From assembly GCA_902803015.1 (NCBI GenBank), contig CADCOL010000166.1, forward strand, positions 1 through 26,674: a DNA stretch of 26,674 nucleotides. Reading direction: 5' to 3'. This DNA is from an uncultured Lachnospiraceae bacterium. Lineage in GTDB: Bacteria; Bacillota; Clostridia; Lachnospirales; Lachnospiraceae. Both the position numbers and the translations under genes were made by a program. Of this stretch, positions 7,773 to 24,690 are shown piece after piece. How positions within the stretch are numbered: position 1 is the stretch's first letter; the number at the start of each line of letters is the position of its first letter. The notes below the pieces were generated by a model. That model saw nothing but the letters and a program-made list of their open reading frames with translations, had not been told where the DNA came from and did no database searches.

Positions 7773-8432
7773 ATGAAAGAATTCATGGAGCATCTGCGCT
7801 TGAAAGAAAGTGCGGAAATGTACCATGCGGTACCGGTATACAAAGAATACGCGGATGTCCCGTTCAATCTTTCGGAAGCGCTTCGCTATGCGGGCATGCC
7901 GGCTCATAATGCGCCGGAAATCGGGAAAGAGAGCGTGGAAGAGGCGCGGAAGCTGATTTCGAAAGATCTGGTATACAAGGTGGGTTATCTTTGCATCGAT
8001 CTTGAAAGGGATGAGGAAGGTTTTCCCATTCTGCCGATTACCCAGCATTCGGAAATGCTGAAGAAGAATCTGCGGGACTGTGACGGAGTGATTCTGTTTG
8101 CGGCAACCATCGGTTCCGGCATAGACCGGCATATTCGCAGATATGAAAGAAGCGAAGTGTCGAAAGCGGCGATTCTGCAGGGACTCGGAGCGGAAAGAGT
8201 GGAATCGCTTTGCAACCTTTTTAACGAAGAAGTAAAAAACGAGGCAGAGCAGAGGGGATTAAAAGCACATCCCCGGTATTCCCCCGGATTCGGAGATCTG
8301 CCGATTTGTGTGCAGAAAGAATTTCTGGATGCACTGGATGCAACAAGACGTATGGGAATTACGTTAAGCGAATCTTATCTGATGGCACCGTCGAAATCGG
8401 TAACGGCAATCATCGGACTGGAGCGCATTTAA
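7773..8432 (+). CDS. Stand-alone methionine synthase reactivation (activation) domain protein
   Basis: A 219-residue protein corresponding to the C-terminal AdoMet-binding reactivation domain of cobalamin-dependent methionine synthase, which restores oxidised cobalamin. The family signature near the C-terminus is clear: HPRYSPGFGDLPI around residues 168-180 and LMAPSKSVTAIIG around 203-215. The MetH encoded just downstream lacks this domain, so the two polypeptides together make up the full enzyme. Such splitting is known in Clostridia. It follows metF by 3 bases and precedes metH by 35 bases. An electron donor such as a flavodoxin is not encoded here. Confidence 0.9.
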   Translation: MKEFMEHLRLKESAEMYHAVPVYKEYADVPFNLSEALRYAGMPAHNAPEIGKESVEEARKLISKDLVYKVGYLCIDLERDEEGFPILPITQHSEMLKKNLRDCDGVILFAATIGSGIDRHIRRYERSEVSKAAILQGLGAERVESLCNLFNEEVKNEAEQRGLKAHPRYSPGFGDLPICVQKEFLDALDATRRMGITLSESYLMAPSKSVTAIIGLERI

Positions 8433-8467
8433 CGGGGATGTTACAGAGGGCAACGGAAGGAACTCGA

Positions 8468-10909
8468 ATGAATATTAAGGAATACATGAAAGACCATTTT
8501 CTTTTCCTGGACGGAGGAATGGGAACGCTTCTTCAGGAAGCGGGACTGAAACCCGGTGAGTTGCCGGAACGATGGAATGTATCCCATCCGGAAGAGATTA
8601 TCCGTATTCAGAAAGCTTATTATGATGCGGGAAGCAATGTTGTGCTGGCCAATACATTCGGTGCCAACAGCCTGAAGTTTGAGGAGCAGGAACTCGAAGC
8701 CCTGATTGCGGGAGCCTTTGACAATGCAAGGAAGGCGAAAGAGGAAAGCACTGGAACGCAGGAAAAATTCATTGCGCTCGATATCGGCCCCATCGGGAAA
8801 CTTTTAAAACCGTATGGGGATTACGAGTTTGAAGATGCGGTTTCGGTATATGCCAAAACGGTGCAGATCGGTGTGAAATGCGGTGCGGATCTGATTTTCA
8901 TCGAAACAATGAATGACAGCTACGATACGAAAGCAGCACTCCTTGCAGCGAAGGAAAATTCCGATCTCCCGGTATTTGTTTCGAATGCATACGGAAGTGA
9001 CGGAAAGCTGATGACGGGTGCTTCGCCTGCTGCCATGGTTGCGATGCTCGAAGGCATGCATGCAGATGCAATCGGTGCAAACTGTTCGCTCGGACCGAAG
9101 CAGCTGACCGGTGTCATGGAAGAGTATTTAAAATACGCGTCGGTTCCGGTTTTGTTAAAACCGAATGCAGGTCTTCCGAGAAGCGAAAACGGAAAGACCG
9201 TGTTTGATGTGGAACCCGAAGAATTCTCGGAAGAGGTAAAAGCTCTTTTGGAAAAAGGAGTGCGGATTGCGGGCGGATGCTGCGGTACCACACCGGATTT
9301 TATCCGGGCGGTTACCAAGAAGGCGGAAGCGTTAACGCCGGTTCCCGTTACAGACAAAAACCTTTCTCTGGTTTCATCCTACACGCATGCCGTGGAATTC
9401 GGAAAAGCGCCGATTCTGATCGGAGAACGCATCAATCCGACCGGAAAGAAACGCTTCCAGCAGGCGCTTCGCGAAAACGATATGGATTATATTCTCGGAG
9501 AAGGCTTAAAACAGCAGGATGCGGGTGTTCAGCTTCTTGACGTAAATGTGGGACTTCCGGAAATCGATGAACCTGCATTGCTGGAACGTGTTACGAAAGA
9601 ATTACAGGCGGTATCGGATTTGCCGCTCCAGATTGATACAACGGACCTTACGGCCATGGAAAAAGCACTTCGCTGCTATAACGGAAAGGCGATGGTCAAT
9701 TCCGTAAACGGTAAGGAAGAAGTGATGGAAGGCGTTTTCCCGCTTGTTGCCAAATACGGCGGATTCGTAGTTGCTTTAACGCTCGATGAGGGAGGAATCC
9801 CGGAGAGCGGAAGTAAACGTGTTGAGATAGCCGAAAAGATTATAGCGAAAGCGGCGGAGTACGGAATCGCAAAGAAGGATTTGATTTTCGATCCGCTTGC
9901 CATGACCATTTCCGCAGATACGAAGGCCGCATTGTCCACGATGGAAGCGGTACATACGATTCGTACCGGACTTAAGGTGAATACTTCCCTCGGTGTATCG
10001 AACGTATCCTTCGGATTGCCGAACCGTAACATCATTACATCCACCTTCTTTGCGCTCTGTCTGGAGGAAGGATTGTCCGCTGCCATCATGAACCCGTATT
10101 CGACGGAAATGATGAATGTGTATCATGCTTATAAAGCACTCCATAACATGGACGAAAACTGCATGTCCTATATTGAGTATACAGCCACGCTTCCTGCAGC
10201 GACAGTTTCCGCGACAACTGCAAATGCCGCAGGTGCATCGAATCCGGCCTCGTCAAACCGGGCTGCCGATTCAAAATATGCATCCCCGATGCAGGAAGCA
10301 ATTATCCGCGGTCTGAAGGATAAGACGGCGGGACTGACCAAAGAACTCCTGAAAGAAAAAGAGCCGCTTGCAATTATCCAGACGGAAGTCATTCCGGCTC
10401 TTAACATTGTCGGTGAGGATTTTGAGAAAAAGAAAGTCTACCTTCCGCAACTTTTGATGGCGGCGGATGCGGCAAAAGCGGCGTTTGAAGAAGTAAAGGT
10501 TCATATGGCCAAAACGGAGGACGCGTCAAAACCGGCCGGCTGTCCGTTCGTAATTGCAACGGTACACGGAGACATACACGACATCGGAAAGAATATCGTG
10601 AAGCTGATTCTGGAAAACTACGGTTTCGCGGTCAGCGATCTTGGTAAGGACGTGCCGCCGCAGGTGATTGTGGATGAGACCATTCGCCTGCATTCTCCGC
10701 TGGTGGGACTGAGTGCGTTGATGACAACCACGGTTCCCGCAATGGAAGAGACAATTAAACTGCTTCGGGAGCAGGCACCGTGGACAAAGGTCTGTGTGGG
10801 CGGTGCCGTTCTGACACAGGAATATGCGGATCAGATCGGTGCGGACCGGTACTGCAGGGATGCCATGGAAACCGTGCGCTACGCACAGGAAATCGAAGCA
10901 ACACTGTAG
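8468..10909 (+). CDS. metH: Cobalamin-dependent methionine synthase lacking the reactivation domain
   Basis: From the ATG at 8468 (GGAAGG 7 bases upstream) this is an 813-residue MetH that moves a methyl group from methyl-THF to homocysteine via cobalamin. The homocysteine domain (about 1-300) opens with FLDGGMGTLLQE and carries the zinc ligands Cys206 (GANCSLGP) and Cys271-Cys272 (GGCCGT). The pterin domain (about 310-590) has IGERINPTGKK. An Ala/Ser/Thr-rich linker near 570-610 precedes the cap domain. The B12 domain (about 690-813) has D702-x-H704-x-x-G, with His704 the axial cobalt ligand. The reactivation module is the separate upstream gene. A longer reading starting at 8306 would overlap that gene heavily and is rejected; ATG 8438 is a weaker alternative. 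Confidence 0.95.
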   Translation: MNIKEYMKDHFLFLDGGMGTLLQEAGLKPGELPERWNVSHPEEIIRIQKAYYDAGSNVVLANTFGANSLKFEEQELEALIAGAFDNARKAKEESTGTQEKFIALDIGPIGKLLKPYGDYEFEDAVSVYAKTVQIGVKCGADLIFIETMNDSYDTKAALLAAKENSDLPVFVSNAYGSDGKLMTGASPAAMVAMLEGMHADAIGANCSLGPKQLTGVMEEYLKYASVPVLLKPNAGLPRSENGKTVFDVEPEEFSEEVKALLEKGVRIAGGCCGTTPDFIRAVTKKAEALTPVPVTDKNLSLVSSYTHAVEFGKAPILIGERINPTGKKRFQQALRENDMDYILGEGLKQQDAGVQLLDVNVGLPEIDEPALLERVTKELQAVSDLPLQIDTTDLTAMEKALRCYNGKAMVNSVNGKEEVMEGVFPLVAKYGGFVVALTLDEGGIPESGSKRVEIAEKIIAKAAEYGIAKKDLIFDPLAMTISADTKAALSTMEAVHTIRTGLKVNTSLGVSNVSFGLPNRNIITSTFFALCLEEGLSAAIMNPYSTEMMNVYHAYKALHNMDENCMSYIEYTATLPAATVSATTANAAGASNPASSNRAADSKYASPMQEAIIRGLKDKTAGLTKELLKEKEPLAIIQTEVIPALNIVGEDFEKKKVYLPQLLMAADAAKAAFEEVKVHMAKTEDASKPAGCPFVIATVHGDIHDIGKNIVKLILENYGFAVSDLGKDVPPQVIVDETIRLHSPLVGLSALMTTTVPAMEETIKLLREQAPWTKVCVGGAVLTQEYADQIGADRYCRDAMETVRYAQEIEATL

Positions 10910-16905: not shown

Positions 16906-18006
16906 ATGAAAGACAAACGATCAAATAACCGAAAACGGTTCAGAAAACCGGATTTGGGAAATCTGATTCTGATTGCTTTGTTTGTTATGCTGGCGGGAGC
17001 GTTTACGCTGGGACTTACATTCCAATCCAAAGCATTCGGTGACTATAACGATTATGACTACGATTCCGGCGGGGGAGATTGGGGAGGCTCCGACTGGGGA
17101 GATTCCGATTGGGACAGCGGATCGAGCTGGGACGACAATGACTACGGCGGATCCGGTTCAGACGGAGAGTTGTTTTCCTGGCTTTTCAGCCTGTTATGGT
17201 TCATTCCTCCGAGATACCGTTGCTGCGGATTGATTGTAATCACTGTCATTATTATTGTGATTACTTCGGTCAGAAAGGCAAAGAAGCGAAAGGGCGTGCA
17301 GAATTTCGTGCAATCGTCAAACGGACAACAAAACAGCATTCCGGTTCAGCCTCAGGCGCCCAGAAAACAGGCTCCGCTAAAACAGCTCAACATTCCGAAC
17401 AGGGATGCGCAGATTGCGGAACTGATCAAGGCAAGGGATGAGAACTTTACGGCACCCGATTTTATCGCATTTACAAAGAATGTTTACATGAATATTCAGG
17501 ATGCATGGTGCAAGAGAGATTTAGAGCCGGTTCGCATGATGCTGCATCAGAATCTCTACGAAAGAACCGAGAAACAGATTCAGAAAAAGATAGCGGACGG
17601 TATCGTTCAGCATCTGGATCGCCTGACCGTAAACGAAGCATATATGACATCCTACAGAAGAGATGCACAGTATGAGTACATTAAGGTCTATCTGAATTCG
17701 TCCATGATTGATTATCAGGTAAAAGAGTCTACGGGACAGATTCTTTACGGTGATATGAGTACACGATGGACCATGCGTTACGAGATGACATTCATGAGAA
17801 GCATCGCAGCCAAGACTGCAGAAGCAGGTGCACAGGAAATCGGAATCAACTGTCCGAACTGCGGCGGACCGCTTCGCGGAACAAGCTTCGGCAAGTGCCC
17901 GTATTGCGACAGTCTGGTTACCACAGGTCTTTACAACTGGGTATTAAGTGATTTCAATGCCATTAAGAATGAATTCCATGACGAAGGCGTTCAGGTAAAT
18001 GAATAA
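16906..18006 (+). CDS. Tim44-like domain membrane protein with zinc ribbon
   Basis: The 366-residue protein has a basic N-terminus, a transmembrane helix (about 19-39), an extracytoplasmic loop rich in Asp, Gly, Ser and Trp (about 47-85) and a second helix after WFIPPRYRCCG (about 105-122). The second half is a Tim44-like (calcium-channel/import-type) fold with the segment FIAFTKNVYMNIQDAWCKRDL near 186-206. It closes with a zinc ribbon: CPNCGG near 308-313 and CPYCDS near 322-327. Homologues in Firmicutes are uncharacterised membrane proteins. The message ends at a strong hairpin terminator. Function is unknown; the ribbon suggests it is folded in the cytoplasm and may bind a partner. Confidence 0.82.
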   Translation: MKDKRSNNRKRFRKPDLGNLILIALFVMLAGAFTLGLTFQSKAFGDYNDYDYDSGGGDWGGSDWGDSDWDSGSSWDDNDYGGSGSDGELFSWLFSLLWFIPPRYRCCGLIVITVIIIVITSVRKAKKRKGVQNFVQSSNGQQNSIPVQPQAPRKQAPLKQLNIPNRDAQIAELIKARDENFTAPDFIAFTKNVYMNIQDAWCKRDLEPVRMMLHQNLYERTEKQIQKKIADGIVQHLDRLTVNEAYMTSYRRDAQYEYIKVYLNSSMIDYQVKESTGQILYGDMSTRWTMRYEMTFMRSIAAKTAEAGAQEIGINCPNCGGPLRGTSFGKCPYCDSLVTTGLYNWVLSDFNAIKNEFHDEGVQVNE

Positions 18007-18078: not shown

Positions 18079-19398
18079 CTATCTCGGAGCCGCACAGACG
18101 AAGGTGTGATTGCCCATGTGATAGGTGTAAATGGTAAGTCCGGGATGCTGGACTTTCAATTTTAATTTGATTTCGTTTGTAAGATCGTCCGGCCAGACAA
18201 AATTATCCAGAATCAGATACGAGACAACGGAATCATATGAGGTATCCACATTATCCAGAAGCAGGGCAATTTCTTTTTTGGCTTCTTCCAAATCGGAAGA
18301 GTATCCGCAATCGTCGAAACTGTCCGAATAATAGAAATAGGTTTTGTCGCTGGTGGGAGAGATCGGAAGCAGTTCGTTTCCGTCATCAATCCGGTGGGTG
18401 TATTCGATTAAGTCTTTTCCGACATTAAAATACGCATAGCTTTGATACATGGAACCGTTCGAAATGACGGATGTGTCATCAAACGTAACATCTACGGCCC
18501 GCCATTCACCTTTGATTTTAATAATGTTCCAAACGTGCATCGCACTTCCGCCCCAGCCGCTTTGTTTTTCCACCTCAAAGCCGGCCATTCTCGACAACAT
18601 ATAGAAGCAGTCGGTATAGCCCTGACAGTTGGCGGCACCGTCCAGAAGAAGTCCGGTTGCGGTACAGTATCTCGGCATATGTTCTCTGCTTCCGGGATTG
18701 GAGTAAACGGCATGGGAACAGATGTAATCGTGAATCAGACGTTCCCGGACCAAAAGGTCCTTCTCGGGCAGGACGGTCTTTTCGATGAATTCGGATGCCA
18801 TTTTATAGACGGTTAAGTCATCACCGGAAAGTGAAGACGGGTCTTTCTTTAAATAGGCATCGGAGATTAACAGACCGGGATAGTAGCCGATGGAAATATC
18901 CCAGTAAACCTTATTGTCGGGAAGCTCCGTTCTGGAACTGGAGACATAGGGCGTGGAGAAACGATACAAAAGAATATTGTTATCGATTTCGAAACCGTTG
19001 ATTGCGTTAAAACTGATGTTGCGTTGTCTGTTCTCCATCATAAAGAGAAAGTATTCGTTGAATTCCTCTGTCGTACCGATGTCCGGAACGCGATCCAGAC
19101 TGTATGGAAAATCATTTTCCCTGGAGGGCGCTTCCCAAACCGGGTTCGGGATTTCTTCCGCAAAAAAGAAATCCGGATTAACGGAATTCTCCGGCTCTTC
19201 CGAAGGCTCCTCGGATGTGATTTCCGAAACCGGTTCCGAAACAAATTCCGATACGGGTTCGGTCAGCCCAAAGTAATCATCTAAAATCCCGGAGAATGTA
19301 TTACAACCCGAAAAAGAGGTGCAAAGAAGCAACATCGCCAGTAATACGGCGACGGTACGGTGCATATTCCTTTTTTTGAGAATGTTATTTCTTTTCAT
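18079..19398 (-). CDS. Transglutaminase-like domain lipoprotein
   Basis: A 439-residue predicted lipoprotein: lysine/arginine-rich start, hydrophobic core, lipobox TSFSGC, then a Glu/Ser/Pro-rich linker (SEPVSEITSEEPSEEPE). The C-terminal half has a transglutaminase-like cysteine-protease fold with a complete apparent triad: Cys258 (NCQGY), His288 (HVWN) and Asp303 (VDVTFDD). Such extracellular domains in Clostridia are thought to act on cell-wall or surface peptides, but no substrate is known. The start is uncertain: ATG 19398 lacks a ribosome site and would sit at the start of transcription from a possible promoter (TTTACA 17 TACCAT, 19434-19406, minus strand); ATG 19365 has AAAGGA only 2-3 bases before it. 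Either gives a good signal peptide. Confidence 0.85.
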   Translation of the reverse strand: MKRNNILKKRNMHRTVAVLLAMLLLCTSFSGCNTFSGILDDYFGLTEPVSEFVSEPVSEITSEEPSEEPENSVNPDFFFAEEIPNPVWEAPSRENDFPYSLDRVPDIGTTEEFNEYFLFMMENRQRNISFNAINGFEIDNNILLYRFSTPYVSSSRTELPDNKVYWDISIGYYPGLLISDAYLKKDPSSLSGDDLTVYKMASEFIEKTVLPEKDLLVRERLIHDYICSHAVYSNPGSREHMPRYCTATGLLLDGAANCQGYTDCFYMLSRMAGFEVEKQSGWGGSAMHVWNIIKIKGEWRAVDVTFDDTSVISNGSMYQSYAYFNVGKDLIEYTHRIDDGNELLPISPTSDKTYFYYSDSFDDCGYSSDLEEAKKEIALLLDNVDTSYDSVVSYLILDNFVWPDDLTNEIKLKLKVQHPGLTIYTYHMGNHTFVCAAPR

Positions 19399-19443
19399 AT
19401 TCTTTATGGTATCGGATATTTGACAAAGTGTAAAGAAAAACTG

Positions 19444-19472
19444 TTTACAAACATACGTTCGTATGTTATTAT
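19444..19472 (+). promoter_or_regulatory. Promoter with an 18-bp palindrome as its spacer
   Basis: TTTACA and TATTAT are 17 bases apart on the plus strand. The spacer is filled by AACATACG-TT-CGTATGTT (19450-19467), a perfect 8-bp inverted repeat. This is the layout of a tightly repressed promoter. It resembles but does not match the Firmicute LexA box. It would transcribe toward the terminator at 19503. Confidence 0.6.
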
Positions 19473-19478
19473 GATATT

Positions 19479-19533
19479 GCAGTAACGAAATCTCAAAGAG
19501 GGCGCAGGGAACCGAAAGGTCTCTGCGTTTTTT
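19479..19533 (+). ncRNA. Possible ~55-nt terminated small RNA
   Basis: A promoter ending at 19472 and a terminator at 19503-19533 define a short transcript of about 55 nt with no open reading frame of note. It lies between a divergent pair and upstream of a second promoter (19570-19598) that serves the next gene. It may be a regulatory RNA, a leader cut short by attenuation, or a relic. No known riboswitch motif was recognised. Confidence 0.35.
19503..19533 (+). terminator. Rho-independent terminator of the short transcript
   Basis: CGCAGGGAACC pairs with GGTCTCTGCG (one G-T pair, one bulged A) around a GAAA tetraloop, followed by six T residues. The T run is on the plus strand only. Confidence 0.75.
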
Positions 19534-19569
19534 CTGTGCGAAAAATAAGATTTTAACTGATTTTGGCAA

Positions 19570-19598
19570 TTGCTTAATATACATAAATCCGCTATACT
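19570..19598 (+). promoter_or_regulatory. Promoter of the two-TM membrane protein gene
   Basis: TTGCTT and TATACT with a 17-base spacer lie 40 bases upstream of the ATG at 19638, which has an AAAGGGGAG ribosome binding site. Confidence 0.65.
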
Positions 19599-20407: not shown

Positions 20408-20436
20408 TTGACAACTATTTGAAAACAAATTATTAT
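20408..20436 (+). promoter_or_regulatory. Promoter of the T-box operon
   Basis: TTGACA and TATTAT spaced by 17 bases, giving a predicted start near 20443, just ahead of the T-box leader. Confidence 0.85.
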
Positions 20437-20442
20437 TAGTTC

Positions 20443-20714
20443 AATCGTGAAAAATCAAATGCTATGAAGGAATTATGCTTCATTCGGATGTTTCAGAGAG
20501 CCGGCGGCAGGTGAAAGCCGGTACGGAAGGATGGTTGCAGTCTCACTCCCGAGCAGAGTTCCCGAACTGACAGTAAGGAACTACGGAAGGCCCCGTTATC
20601 GCAGTCGCAGATATGTTGGTATCTGATAAAGAGGTTGTGTAAACAACAAGTCGGGTGGTACCGCGGTAAAGAAGATTTATCGTCCCGAGAGCCGAAAGGC
20701 TTTCGGGATTTTTT
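20443..20714 (+). promoter_or_regulatory. T-box leader, probable leucine specifier (CTC)
   Basis: This fills the 347-base gap before the LeuA-like gene. The conserved T-box sequence GGGTGGTACCGCGG is at 20653-20666, with TGGT able to pair with the tRNA 3' end (discriminator A, as in tRNA-Leu). Upstream, the Stem I distal arm (CAGAGAGCC, then GGTGAAAGCCGG) is visible. The specifier region reads CTC-ACTCCC-GAGC, which fits the usual codon followed by A-C-rich-GAG pattern, with the codon at 20542-20544 calling for leucine. The terminator is TCCCGAGAGCC / GGCTTTCGGGA (20683-20708, one G-T pair) with a GAAA loop and six T. Uncharged tRNA-Leu would favour readthrough. A 6-bp hairpin ATGAAG/CTTCAT lies at the 5' end. 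Confidence 0.9.
20683..20714 (+). terminator. T-box regulated terminator
   Basis: An 11-bp stem with GAAA loop followed by TTTTTT, 26 bases before the LeuA-like start codon. It competes with the antiterminator formed around 20653-20666. Confidence 0.9.
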
Positions 20715-20740
20715 ATTTTACAAAGAAAGGACAAAGCATT

Positions 20741-22156
20741 ATGAACCGAATCAGAATCGCTGATGTAACGATCAAGGAATCCTGCAACAGCAGGGAAGCA
20801 GCCCTTAGCTTTAAGGAAAAAATGGAGGTTGCAAAGCAGCTGGACCTTTTGATGATTGATGTCATCGAAATGCCGAAGGTTACGGAGCAGACGGAAAACC
20901 TATTGGTAAAGTCACTTTGCCCCGTTATTAAAAACAGTGTCCTTTCCGTGGAAGTGGGACTCGATCAGGCAGAGGTGGACCGTGCGGCGGCAGCGCTTGC
21001 AAATGCAAAGAAACCGCGAATCTGCATCAGTGTTCCGACTTCTCCCGTTCAGATGGAATATCTCTGCGGAATGAAGCCGAAGAAGATTCTGGAACTGGTT
21101 CCGGCCATCGTGTCCTATGCAAAGACCAAATGCGAAGATGTGGAGTTTTACTGCAAGGATGCAACCAGAAGCGAAAAAGAATTCCTTTGCAATATTATCC
21201 TCTGTGCGGTAAAGGCCGGAGCGAATATTGTGGATTTGGAAGATACGGCGGGAATTATGCTGCCGGAAGAATTCGATTCACTGATTGACGGCATTCGTGC
21301 GGTTTTAAAGGAAGAAGGTCAGAATGCGGATCTTTCCGTAACCTGTTCGGACAACTTAAACATGGCGACTGCAAATGCCGTTACCTGCATTCGGAGCGGC
21401 GCGGTGGAAGTAAAGACTTCCTTAATCGGTAAGGCGGCACCCCGGCTGGAAGCCATCGTAAACATGGTTACGGAACGCGGCGATTCCCTTGAGATGGAGA
21501 TTGCCCAGAAGCGTCCCGAAGTGGAAAAGACATTAAGAAAACTGTTCTGGATGGAAGGAAGCAAGAGCGGCGGAACATTTGCCTTAGAGCATGACGAGTC
21601 CAAGAAGGAACTGGATCTGGACCTTGATGAGAATGCGGATATTTCCAAGGTAATTCGTGTCATTAAGAAACTGGGATACGATCTTTCGGATGACGACAAT
21701 GCGAAAGTTTATAAAGAGTTTAAGAGAGTATCCGAAAAGAAGAAAGTCGGAAGCAAGGAAATGGAAGCGATTATCGCAACCGCATCCTTACAGGTTCCTC
21801 CGACATACCAGCTTGTGAATTTTGTCATCAACAGCGGAAATATTATCACGCCGACGGCGCAGGTTACGCTGGAAAAAGACGGAAATCAGTTAAAAGGATT
21901 AAGCTCCGGAGACGGCCCCATTGCGGCAGCATTTTTAGCCGTGGAAATGGTTGTGGGAGTACATTACGAACTGGATGACTTCCAGATTCAGTCCGTTACG
22001 GAAGGCAGCGAAGCCGTCGGAAATGCACTGGTGAAGCTTCGTTATAACGGAAAACTGTATTCCGGAAACGGAATTTCGACCGATATTATCGGCGCAAGCA
22101 TCCGCGCATACTTGAATGCCATTAACAAGATTGTATACGACAGCAGGAACGAATAG
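20741..22156 (+). CDS. LeuA-like protein with intact regulatory domain but degenerate catalytic site
   Basis: A 471-residue member of the isopropylmalate/homocitrate synthase superfamily. The barrel retains KDATRSEKEF near 144-153 and VDLEDTAG near 163-170, and the C-terminal 120 residues are a good LeuA dimer/allosteric domain (SSGDGPIAAAF, VTEGSEAVGNA, YSGNGISTDIIGASIRAYLNA). But the catalytic motifs are altered: the usual DTTLRDG is D8-V-T-I-K-E-S, the metal-binding HxH-N-D is T201-C-S203-D-N, and the GERAGN loop is GKAAPRL. So most metal ligands and the catalytic arginine are gone. Ordinary 2-isopropylmalate synthase activity is unlikely; a regulatory, leucine-binding or altered function is inferred. 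AAAGGA precedes the ATG. The gene is under a leucine T-box and is 14 bases upstream of the TIM barrel-ligase fusion. Confidence 0.88.
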   Translation: MNRIRIADVTIKESCNSREAALSFKEKMEVAKQLDLLMIDVIEMPKVTEQTENLLVKSLCPVIKNSVLSVEVGLDQAEVDRAAAALANAKKPRICISVPTSPVQMEYLCGMKPKKILELVPAIVSYAKTKCEDVEFYCKDATRSEKEFLCNIILCAVKAGANIVDLEDTAGIMLPEEFDSLIDGIRAVLKEEGQNADLSVTCSDNLNMATANAVTCIRSGAVEVKTSLIGKAAPRLEAIVNMVTERGDSLEMEIAQKRPEVEKTLRKLFWMEGSKSGGTFALEHDESKKELDLDLDENADISKVIRVIKKLGYDLSDDDNAKVYKEFKRVSEKKKVGSKEMEAIIATASLQVPPTYQLVNFVINSGNIITPTAQVTLEKDGNQLKGLSSGDGPIAAAFLAVEMVVGVHYELDDFQIQSVTEGSEAVGNALVKLRYNGKLYSGNGISTDIIGASIRAYLNAINKIVYDSRNE

Positions 22157-22170
22157 GAAAGGGAAAAAGA

Positions 22171-24690
22171 ATGAAATTATCATTTAGCACAAACGGATGG
22201 GATGATTTTGACTGGACAGACTGTTATACTACCGCAAAGGATTTGCAGTTTGCCGGAATTGAAATTCATGATATCAAAAGGGAAGTATTCTCCGGAAAGA
22301 ACAGACCGTTCAATAATGAGAATATTCTCGAAACAGCAAGAAAAATCTTCCAGATGCAGCTTGAGATTCCCTGCCTTGACGCAACCTGTGATGTGGCGGA
22401 TCCGGACCGTATCGAGAAGAATGTGGAGGAAATCCGCGAATATATCCGCATCGCAAAGATTTTGAAATGCCCCGCAATTCGTTTAAGAGCGGGAAAAAGC
22501 ATTAAGGATACGGAAGTAAAGGACGAGCCGGTTATCGAATGTATTCGTCAGACTTTTAAGGAGGCGGATTTAAACGGCGTATCCCTGCTCCTTGAAACCA
22601 TCGGTGTTTATTCCGATACGGAGCGTCTTCGCAACGTATTAAACGTATTTGCAAGAGACAATGTGGCGGCGTTGTGGGACATTCATCATACCGTACGTCA
22701 CGGAAACGAAACGCCCGAGCAGACCATTCAGAACCTCGGCGCATATGTAAAACACGTACATATCAAGGATTCCGACGAGAACGGCTACTGCCTGATGGGC
22801 GAAGGAAACCTTCCGATTGCCGATTTGATCCTTGCTTTGCAGAGCGTCAATTACGAAGGCTTTGTTTCCTTTGAGTGGATTCCTTCCTGGCTTCCCGAAT
22901 TGTCGGACTCCGGAATCGTATTCCCGCACTTTGTCAATTACATGAGCCAGTATGAGCGTGAAACCGTTACGGCGGATCACGGATTGTATTCCAATCGTGC
23001 CGGCACCGGTAAGTTTGTATGGAAAAAAGAAGAGATTATCGACAAGACATTCCCGCAGGTATTGGACCGCATGGTGGAAGAATTTCCCGATCAGTACGCG
23101 TTCCGTTATACGACGCTGGATTATACCAGAACATATAAAGAATTCCGCGATGACGTGGATGAGTTTGCAAGATCCTTAATCGCGCTTGGCGTAAAGCAGG
23201 GTACCCATGTGGCAATCTGGGCCACCAACGTGCCACAGTGGTATATTTCCTTCTGGGCATGCTGCCGGATCGGTGCCGTACTGGTTACCATGAATACGGC
23301 GTATAAAATCCACGAGGCGGAGTACCTGCTTCGAAACTCCGATACCCATACGCTCGTTATGATTGACGGATTCCGTGATTCCCATTACAACGAGATTATG
23401 GCGGAGCTGTGCCCGGAACTTGCAACCAATACACCGGGCAAGGCATTGCACTGCAAGAGACTGCCCTTCCTGCGTCACATCATTAATGTAAGCTCCCGTC
23501 AGCCGGGTTGCTTAACCTGGGAAGATGCGCTTGCATTGGCGGATACCGTTCCCATTGAAGAAGTGTACAGAAGATCATCCCTGGTAGACAAGCATGATGT
23601 CTGCAACATGCAGTATACATCCGGAACCACGGGATTCCCGAAGGGCGTTATGCTGACGCATTATAATGTTGTAAATAACGGCAAATGCATCGGTGACCGT
23701 ATGGACTTATCCACTGCGGACCGTATGATGATTCAGGTGCCGATGTTCCACTGCTTCGGCATGGTACTTGCGATGACGGCTTCCATGACGCACGGCGTTA
23801 CCATTTCGCCGATTCCGTATTTTTCCACGAAGCCGGCACTTGCCTGCATCAATCGCGAAAAGATTACCTGCTTCCACGGAGTTCCTACCATGTTCATTGC
23901 CATGCTTGAGCATGAGGATTTCGAAAAGACCGATTTTTCCTATATGAGAACCGGTATTATGGCCGGATCTCCCTGTCCGATTGCTATCATGAAGGACGTT
24001 GTGGAGAAAATGCACATGACCGAGATTACGATTGTATACGGTCAGACAGAGGCATCCCCGGGATGTACGATGTCAAGTACCGAAGATTCTCTGGAAGTTC
24101 GTGTAAATACGGTAGGCGGACCGCTTCCCGGCGTGGAATGCAAGGTAGTGGATCCCGAAACCGGAGAAGAAGTTCCGGACGGTGTGAACGGCGAGTTTGT
24201 GGCACGCGGTTACAATATTATGAAGGGATACTATAAAATGCCCATGGCGACCGCTCAGGCCATTGATAAGGACGGATGGCTGCATACGGGTGATCTGGCA
24301 TGCAGAACGCCGGAAGGAAACTTCCGTATTACCGGCCGCTTAAAGGATATGATTATCCGCGGCGGCGAGAACATTTACCCGAAGGAAATCGAGGAATTCA
24401 TTTATACGCATGAGTCCGTAAAGGATGTACAGGTTATCGGTGTGCCCGACGAACAGCTCGGCGAGGAAATCTGTGCTTGCGTAGTACCCAAGGAAGGGGT
24501 TACTCTTACAGAAGAAGAGATTAAAGATTATGTAAGATCCCATATGGCAAAACATAAAGTTCCGAAATATGTCGATATCGTGGACGGTTTCCCGATGAAC
24601 GCAGCCGGCAAGATTTTGAAGTATAAAATGCGCGAGGCGGCAATCGAGAAGTACAATCTGGCGAAAGCGGACAGTATCGAGACGGCATAG
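22171..24690 (+). CDS. Fusion of xylose-isomerase-like TIM barrel and acyl-CoA synthetase
   Basis: An 839-residue protein with two complete modules. Residues 1-265 are a sugar phosphate isomerase/epimerase (xylose isomerase-like) barrel with a full set of likely metal ligands: Glu142 (LLLETIG), Asp170 and His172-173 (WDIHHT), His195/His197 (KHVHIKD) and Glu235 (SFEW). Residues 290-839 are an AMP-forming ligase: T483-SGTTGFPKG-492 binds ATP, Y623-G-Q-T-E-A, D708 in HTGD, RLKDMIIRGGENIYPKE, and the adenylation lysine K814 in AGKILKYKM. The ligase half resembles FadD/medium-chain acyl-CoA synthetases. Both halves look active. The start is supported by GGAAAGGG upstream. Acid substrate unknown; the neighbouring LeuA-like gene suggests a branched or hydroxy acid, as inference. 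No terminator separates it from cca. Confidence 0.92.
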   Translation: MKLSFSTNGWDDFDWTDCYTTAKDLQFAGIEIHDIKREVFSGKNRPFNNENILETARKIFQMQLEIPCLDATCDVADPDRIEKNVEEIREYIRIAKILKCPAIRLRAGKSIKDTEVKDEPVIECIRQTFKEADLNGVSLLLETIGVYSDTERLRNVLNVFARDNVAALWDIHHTVRHGNETPEQTIQNLGAYVKHVHIKDSDENGYCLMGEGNLPIADLILALQSVNYEGFVSFEWIPSWLPELSDSGIVFPHFVNYMSQYERETVTADHGLYSNRAGTGKFVWKKEEIIDKTFPQVLDRMVEEFPDQYAFRYTTLDYTRTYKEFRDDVDEFARSLIALGVKQGTHVAIWATNVPQWYISFWACCRIGAVLVTMNTAYKIHEAEYLLRNSDTHTLVMIDGFRDSHYNEIMAELCPELATNTPGKALHCKRLPFLRHIINVSSRQPGCLTWEDALALADTVPIEEVYRRSSLVDKHDVCNMQYTSGTTGFPKGVMLTHYNVVNNGKCIGDRMDLSTADRMMIQVPMFHCFGMVLAMTASMTHGVTISPIPYFSTKPALACINREKITCFHGVPTMFIAMLEHEDFEKTDFSYMRTGIMAGSPCPIAIMKDVVEKMHMTEITIVYGQTEASPGCTMSSTEDSLEVRVNTVGGPLPGVECKVVDPETGEEVPDGVNGEFVARGYNIMKGYYKMPMATAQAIDKDGWLHTGDLACRTPEGNFRITGRLKDMIIRGGENIYPKEIEEFIYTHESVKDVQVIGVPDEQLGEEICACVVPKEGVTLTEEEIKDYVRSHMAKHKVPKYVDIVDGFPMNAAGKILKYKMREAAIEKYNLAKADSIETA

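Follow-up and report, generated by a model that had tools for sequence, protein, structure and literature searches.

Positions 20408-24690 of a 26,674-nucleotide stretch of contig CADCOL010000166.1 (assembly GCA_902803015.1), from an uncultured Lachnospiraceae bacterium and referred to here in full as the window, hold a T-box leader followed by two genes. The first encodes a LeuA-like protein whose canonical active site is lost (termed pseudo-LeuA), and the second encodes a fusion of a triosephosphate isomerase (TIM) barrel with an acyl-coenzyme A (CoA) ligase (Table 1). On the comparative evidence given below, this cassette is likely to serve as the entry module, specific for leucine, of the route that makes leucine by carboxylation of isovalerate.

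Table 1. Features of the cassette, in window coordinates.
Feature	Position	Strand	Details
Sigma-70-type promoter-like site	20408..20436	+	TTGACA-17-TATTAT; 11/12 matches
T-box leader (RF00230)	20455..20690	+	118.8 bits; gathering score 93
Specifier triplet CUC (Leu)	20542..20544	+	Register of the Rfam alignment and of other leaders
T-box sequence GGGTGGTACCGCG, antiterminator part	20653..20665	+	
Intrinsic terminator (stem-loop and T tail)	20682..20709	+	12-pair stem; -22.2 kcal/mol, z -6.6
Pseudo-LeuA, 471 amino acids	20741..22156	+	Degenerate HMGL-like barrel, residues 4-230; LeuA_dimer leucine domain, residues 337-464
Fusion, 839 amino acids	22171..24690	+	AP_endonuc_2 TIM barrel, residues 22-237; AMP-forming acyl-CoA ligase, residues 299-814

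The leader and the conserved gene pair

The leader matched the Rfam T-box model over its whole length (1-219 of 219; E 4.5e-26), its CUC specifier fell in the same register as the specifier of the Rfam alignment and of 15 other leaders, and both a terminator and a T-box sequence were present, between which switching is predicted. The region has two promoter-like sites, the expected number being 0.7. The relatives of gene 1 were studied as the best 80 loci (44-89% identical; mean length 13.6 kb) of at least 582 stretches from genome contigs, some of which may be ordinary LeuA, giving 81 sequences with the window. A regular expression could read the specifier in only 21 of 65 leaders, and a stem-I covariance model built from 16 CTC leaders was used instead. 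By this model 64 of the 81 gene-1 leaders, the window included, could be read, and all 64 carried leucine codons (60 CUC and four CUG). At loci L063 and L081 the specifier was assigned by eye over an alignment gap, and two further matches at L056 (CTG and TTC), which lie elsewhere, were excluded from the counts. Nine of the 81 gene-1 leaders were themselves training sequences, as were five of the 11 fusion-only leaders described next, which may bias the reading; the CTC-trained model nevertheless still returned AUC, GUA and GUC at a second ligase (see below). No leader match was obtained for 17 of the 81 sequences, three of which (L028, L035 and L061) had too little upstream DNA, the 3' T-box motif being visible even so at L035. 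At loci where the fusion occurs without gene 1, of which 17 were fetched from 50 genomes, a leader was found in 11 and the specifier was CUC in all 11; five of these leaders passed the Rfam gathering score, and those at L092 and L093 were searched and fell below it. The comparative evidence is strong that the predicted cassette switch responds to leucine tRNA.

The fusion gene, complete or cut short only by the contig end, lay directly 3' of gene 1 in 78 of the 80 loci, and the other two contigs end within 215 nucleotides; the gap in the window is 14 nucleotides. The pairing was also followed in 243 genomes of the class, sampled evenly with a requested completeness of at least 90% and with the window's genome included. 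Gene 1 (E<=1e-60) was present in 22 of them, and in each of the 22 the fusion began no more than 17 nucleotides past the matched stretch. The fusion itself was counted by hand: of 99 genomes with a TIM-barrel match at E<=1e-25, 72 had that match inside an unbroken open frame of 520 amino acids or more and were accepted (22 with pseudo-LeuA and 50 without gene 1), G180 and G281 being dropped on account of a stop. Chance pairing is ruled out by the recurrence of the arrangement in the related loci. A preliminary description of this DNA had proposed a leucine T-box driving two genes 14 bases apart, and both the leucine specifier and the conservation of the pair held when they were followed into these relatives.

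Two observations on distribution and gene structure may be added. Pseudo-LeuA with a leucine T-box was also seen at L021 and L047, and the cassette may have crossed phyla, since these genomes are titled Caccocola and Synergistes. At L004:3375-8395 the fusion is present as two overlapping frames that hold the TIM barrel and the ligase apart, either a natural split or a sequencing frameshift.

A LeuA homologue without its active site and a two-domain ligase

The gene 1 product scored 127 bits against HMGL-like and 104.8 bits against LeuA_dimer (cut-off 24.9), and its score of 269 bits against the NCBIfam equivalog for type I LeuA (TIGR00973) was below the cut-off of 598.7. The fold and the LeuA_dimer domain are shared with type I LeuA, whereas the catalytic and metal residues are lost. 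In the window protein E13, T201 and S203 replace the D, H and H of 31 canonical LeuA sequences (30 loci and L082), residues that belong to the DRE and HxH motifs, which we take to be the metal and catalytic motifs of LeuA. The canonical D and two H were kept in 0, 0 and 1% of the 81 pseudo-LeuA sequences, the positions varying freely across the family, and pseudo-LeuA has undergone deletion of two segments that never vary in the canonical sequences. Mean column identity in pseudo-LeuA was 0.80 for the leucine domain and 0.54 for the barrel; the corresponding canonical values were 0.54 and 0.65, from a set assembled without matching its divergence to that of the 81. An AlphaFold2 model (predicted local distance difference test, pLDDT, 86; predicted template modelling score, pTM, 0.59) matched LeuA folds in the PDB, including the leucine-bound structure 3fig.

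Ordinary LeuA is ruled out by the loss of the active site across the family; from the window alone, the preliminary description had already read this loss and the retention of the leucine domain. Pseudogene decay is likewise ruled out, the clade being separate from the 31 canonical sequences (support 0.845) and its leucine domain more conserved than theirs. Probably the LeuA-like protein is a pseudoenzyme that senses leucine and regulates the ligase. It is rather unlikely that it still catalyses some other reaction by a chemistry that needs no metal: the barrel residues D8, T10, P99, S101, E135, D140, R143 and D168 are still conserved, but the freedom of the metal and catalytic positions, the deletion of the two segments and the standing of the leucine domain as the most conserved part of the protein all speak against it.

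Gene 2 encodes AP_endonuc_2, AMP-binding (315 bits) and AMP-binding_C (74 bits) domains. The whole C-terminal half resembles the ANL ligases of PRK12583, but its score (688.7 bits) is below the cut-off of 832 and it is fused to a TIM barrel. Among 85 fusions, drawn from 68 pseudo-LeuA loci and the 17 fusion-only loci, strict patterns for what we take to be the ligase motifs were found as follows: P-loop in 85, hinge in 84, YG[QM]TE in 79, TGD[LV] in 65 and the catalytic-Lys region in 78. We infer isovalerate as the substrate of this half.

The barrel was modelled with a pLDDT of 92 and has a fold like that of the D-tagatose 3-epimerase, IolI and Art22 barrels, to which it is 14-21% identical. 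Its metal ligands are presumed to be E-D-H-E, an assignment made from general knowledge of such barrels together with an alignment to MJ1311. The window protein and all 17 fusion-only loci have this presumed site (E142, D170, H197 and E235) unaltered. In the pseudo-LeuA loci all four ligands are present in 39 of 68, and the site is changed in 29 of 68 (against 0 of 17 fusion-only; p 0.0004, this and all later p-values ignoring kinship). Mean identity was 0.83 for the ligase and 0.57 for the barrel. Since the site is changed in so many loci while the ligase stays conserved, some of the pseudo-LeuA lineage seems able to do without any reaction of the barrel, which argues against a main-route step there. 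An isomerase/ligase fusion had been proposed at the outset; the two-domain fusion stands, and no reaction is assigned to the half that was called an isomerase.

Genes of the proposed carboxylation route and the absence of classical markers

Genes for subunits of VOR (2-ketoisovalerate:ferredoxin oxidoreductase) and/or the branched-chain aminotransferase (BCAT) IlvE lay nearby in 25 of the 80 loci and always on the same strand. Representative scores were 562 bits for VorB (NF005507; cut-off 399) and 398 bits for IlvE (TIGR01123; cut-off 250), and the full gene order, seen for example at L029, L030, L070 and L077, is pseudo-LeuA, fusion, IlvE, CbiA-like protein, VorB, beta and gamma subunits. 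Upstream genes with VOR-like sizes at L010 and L011 proved unrelated, and an apparent oxidoreductase fusion, P0109, in which a TIM fragment precedes a POR_N domain, occurs on a single contig and was set aside. The CbiA-like P-loop protein, of about 220 amino acids, usually precedes VorB (L078:14592-15263 and 21 other loci), and 18 of the 80 loci have an Amidohydro_2 (PF04909) gene downstream of the fusion (e.g. L074:11893-12711).

A second AMP ligase of about 800 amino acids has a T-box of its own, with an isoleucine or valine specifier in 16 of 16 read (e.g. L043:12015-12117 and L074:599-698). Nine of these were AUC (L016, L040, L043, L045, L048, L049, L078, L108 and L109) and seven GUA or GUC (L037, L044, L057, L063, L064, L074 and L081). 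VOR genes shared the locus in 12 of the 16, the exceptions being L045, L057, L108 and L109; the helix-turn-helix, cupin and ligase domains of this protein were checked in L057 only. The second ligase probably acts on 2-methylbutyrate or isobutyrate, and the pattern is what would be expected if separate ligases and a shared VOR turn isovalerate, 2-methylbutyrate and isobutyrate into leucine, isoleucine and valine.

Pathway genes were next counted in the 243 genomes, with thresholds of E<=1e-100 for VorB, E<=1e-70 for LeuB, E<=1e-150 for type I LeuA and E<=1e-80 for LeuC-like TIGR01343. VorB was present in 69 of 72 fusion genomes against 85 of 171 others (p 1e-13). LeuB, found in 157 of 243 genomes overall (151 above the curated cut-off), was present in four of 22 pseudo-LeuA genomes against 42 of 50 fusion-only genomes (p 1.5e-7), and IlvC in four of 22 against 26 of 50 (p 0.009). 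LeuB and IlvC were both missing in 18 of the 22 pseudo-LeuA genomes, and BCAT was present in 20; nearly all pseudo-LeuA genomes keep the carboxylation-route enzymes. Nine family groups (f1, f5, f11, f15, f18, f40, f47, f59 and f63) each contain both a genome that has pseudo-LeuA and lacks LeuB and a relative with the reverse pattern; in f1 the former is the incomplete window genome. G148 and G207 have LeuA, LeuB, VorB and the fusion with no IlvC match, and there 2-oxoisovalerate made from isobutyrate perhaps feeds the classical leucine pathway.

The same counts bear on two other targets or products. It is unlikely that the ligase makes isovaleryl-CoA as a primer for iso-branched fatty acids, with leucine control only reporting branched-chain supply. 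The product fits this role, and 2-methylbutyryl- or isobutyryl-CoA would come from the second ligase, but the same-strand VOR and aminotransferase genes, the near-constant VorB of fusion genomes, the missing LeuB and IlvC, and induction by uncharged tRNA-Leu all suit leucine supply better. Also unlikely is a LeuA-like protein that binds leucine and acts on a target other than the ligase, such as VOR, or residual LeuA through mixed oligomers. Pfam names the domain as the LeuA allosteric (dimerisation) domain, and two of the 22 pseudo-LeuA genomes keep type I LeuA; however, 20 have none at the threshold used, and the fusion is the next gene wherever the contig reaches far enough.

The cassette is flanked by a DUF6709 gene and a CCA tRNA nucleotidyltransferase gene, which look unrelated to it. 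At 8306-10909 is a MetH-like protein of 867 amino acids that carries a homocysteine methyltransferase, a pterin and a B12 domain (the methionine synthase model is longer, at 1182 positions), and at 18079-19584 on the minus strand a transglutaminase-core protein adjoins a Tim44-like protein at 16906-18006.

A proposed route from isovalerate to leucine

Under the carboxylation reading, a low level of charged tRNA-Leu(GAG) would let the uncharged tRNA pair with the CUC specifier and cause read-through at the T-box, so that leucine shortage would raise both ligase and sensor. The ligase half of the fusion would convert isovalerate to isovaleryl-CoA, which VOR, encoded next door in some relatives and elsewhere in others, would carboxylate with reduced ferredoxin to 2-oxoisocaproate, and BCAT would form leucine from this. 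Flux would thus run towards leucine. Pseudo-LeuA would be the leucine-binding regulatory partner, in contact with the fusion, and most likely leucine restrains the co-transcribed ligase through it as feedback control, a suggestion drawn from conservation and gene pairing only. The opposite direction, in which amino-acid fermenters transaminate leucine and oxidize it by VOR to isovaleryl-CoA and isovalerate, is very unlikely: leucine fermentation uses the same kinds of enzyme, and hosts without LeuB and IlvC could consume leucine, but induction at leucine starvation is the opposite of a catabolic need and an AMP-forming ligase costs ATP.

Several observations weigh against the carboxylation reading. 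No T-box lies directly upstream at 14 gene-1 loci with enough upstream DNA or at six of the 17 fusion-only loci, and the p-values are inflated by shared ancestry. Four of the 22 pseudo-LeuA genomes (G073, G082, G119 and G154) retain LeuB and IlvC, and 15 of the 22 have a LeuC-like TIGR01343 match; this match is at 1e-167 or better in the same four and only 1e-101 to 1e-112 in the 11 others, whose weaker matches may be aconitase. At least 11 of 50 genomes with the cassette encode another full-length LeuA/CimA-type protein. Isovaleryl-CoA, the product predicted for the ligase, would be required for iso-fatty-acid priming as well, and sequence and fold matches pointed to no reaction for the TIM barrel. 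Finally, VorB was not found at the threshold used in the window's genome, which is 76.75% complete. That genome has BCAT (G000:C185; 375.9 against 250 bits) and no LeuB, IlvC, LeuC-like or type I LeuA match. A VOR-type alpha subunit was found in 19 of 20 other cassette genomes tested, G004 being the exception. Loss of VorB by assembly is plausible but unproven, because the close relative G001 (gene 1 89% identical) has a CbiA-VOR-ligase cluster located elsewhere in its genome.

The preliminary description had held that this is not a leucine biosynthesis operon, which is probably wrong: the cassette lacks leuBCD because it most likely serves a ferredoxin-dependent route from isovalerate. Its alternative guess, a leucine-responsive acid-activation or branched-acid pathway, came close to what is proposed here. 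Allison, Bucklin and Robinson reportedly worked on the isovalerate-to-leucine route in 1966. Shared with the rumen route are the habitat of many loci, the proposed substrate, and carboxylation and amination to leucine; a dedicated ligase, a leucine T-box and a pseudo-LeuA are proposed for the cassette only. A catalytically dead enzyme kept for regulation has a parallel in HisZ, the synthetase paralogue that regulates ATP phosphoribosyltransferase, which pseudo-LeuA would resemble in that respect while differing in fold and pathway. A passage and reference titles of PMC7356843 date the biochemistry of rumen leucine synthesis by isovalerate carboxylation to the 1960s and describe branched-chain volatile fatty acids as growth factors of ruminococci. 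The Bacillus subtilis ilv-leu T-box, with a CUC triplet according to a title cited in PMC2494555, has the same leader anatomy, but here the leader controls pseudo-LeuA and an acyl-CoA ligase and not ilv-leu genes. No paper listed by the literature searches named genes for the carboxylation route, and the cassette is not named in those of PMC2494555, PMC7356843, PMC11304471 and PMC3766115; supplements and subscription papers lay outside the search, so an earlier description is possible.

The cassette looks like the missing genes for making leucine from isovalerate in gut and rumen bacteria. A broader proposal is that feedback control was taken over across pathways: these bacteria would have dropped the classical leucine pathway and retained its committed enzyme, LeuA, solely as a catalytically dead sensor of leucine, coupled to the ligase of the rival ferredoxin-driven route. 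We regard this proposal as evenly balanced; if true, it would be a clean case of an enzyme turned regulator of the pathway that replaced its own. If the carboxylation reading is right, the ligase, leucine sensor and RNA switch of a route known for some sixty years would be named, and the route could be called from genomes, 18 of the 22 with pseudo-LeuA otherwise looking leucine auxotrophic by LeuB and IlvC.

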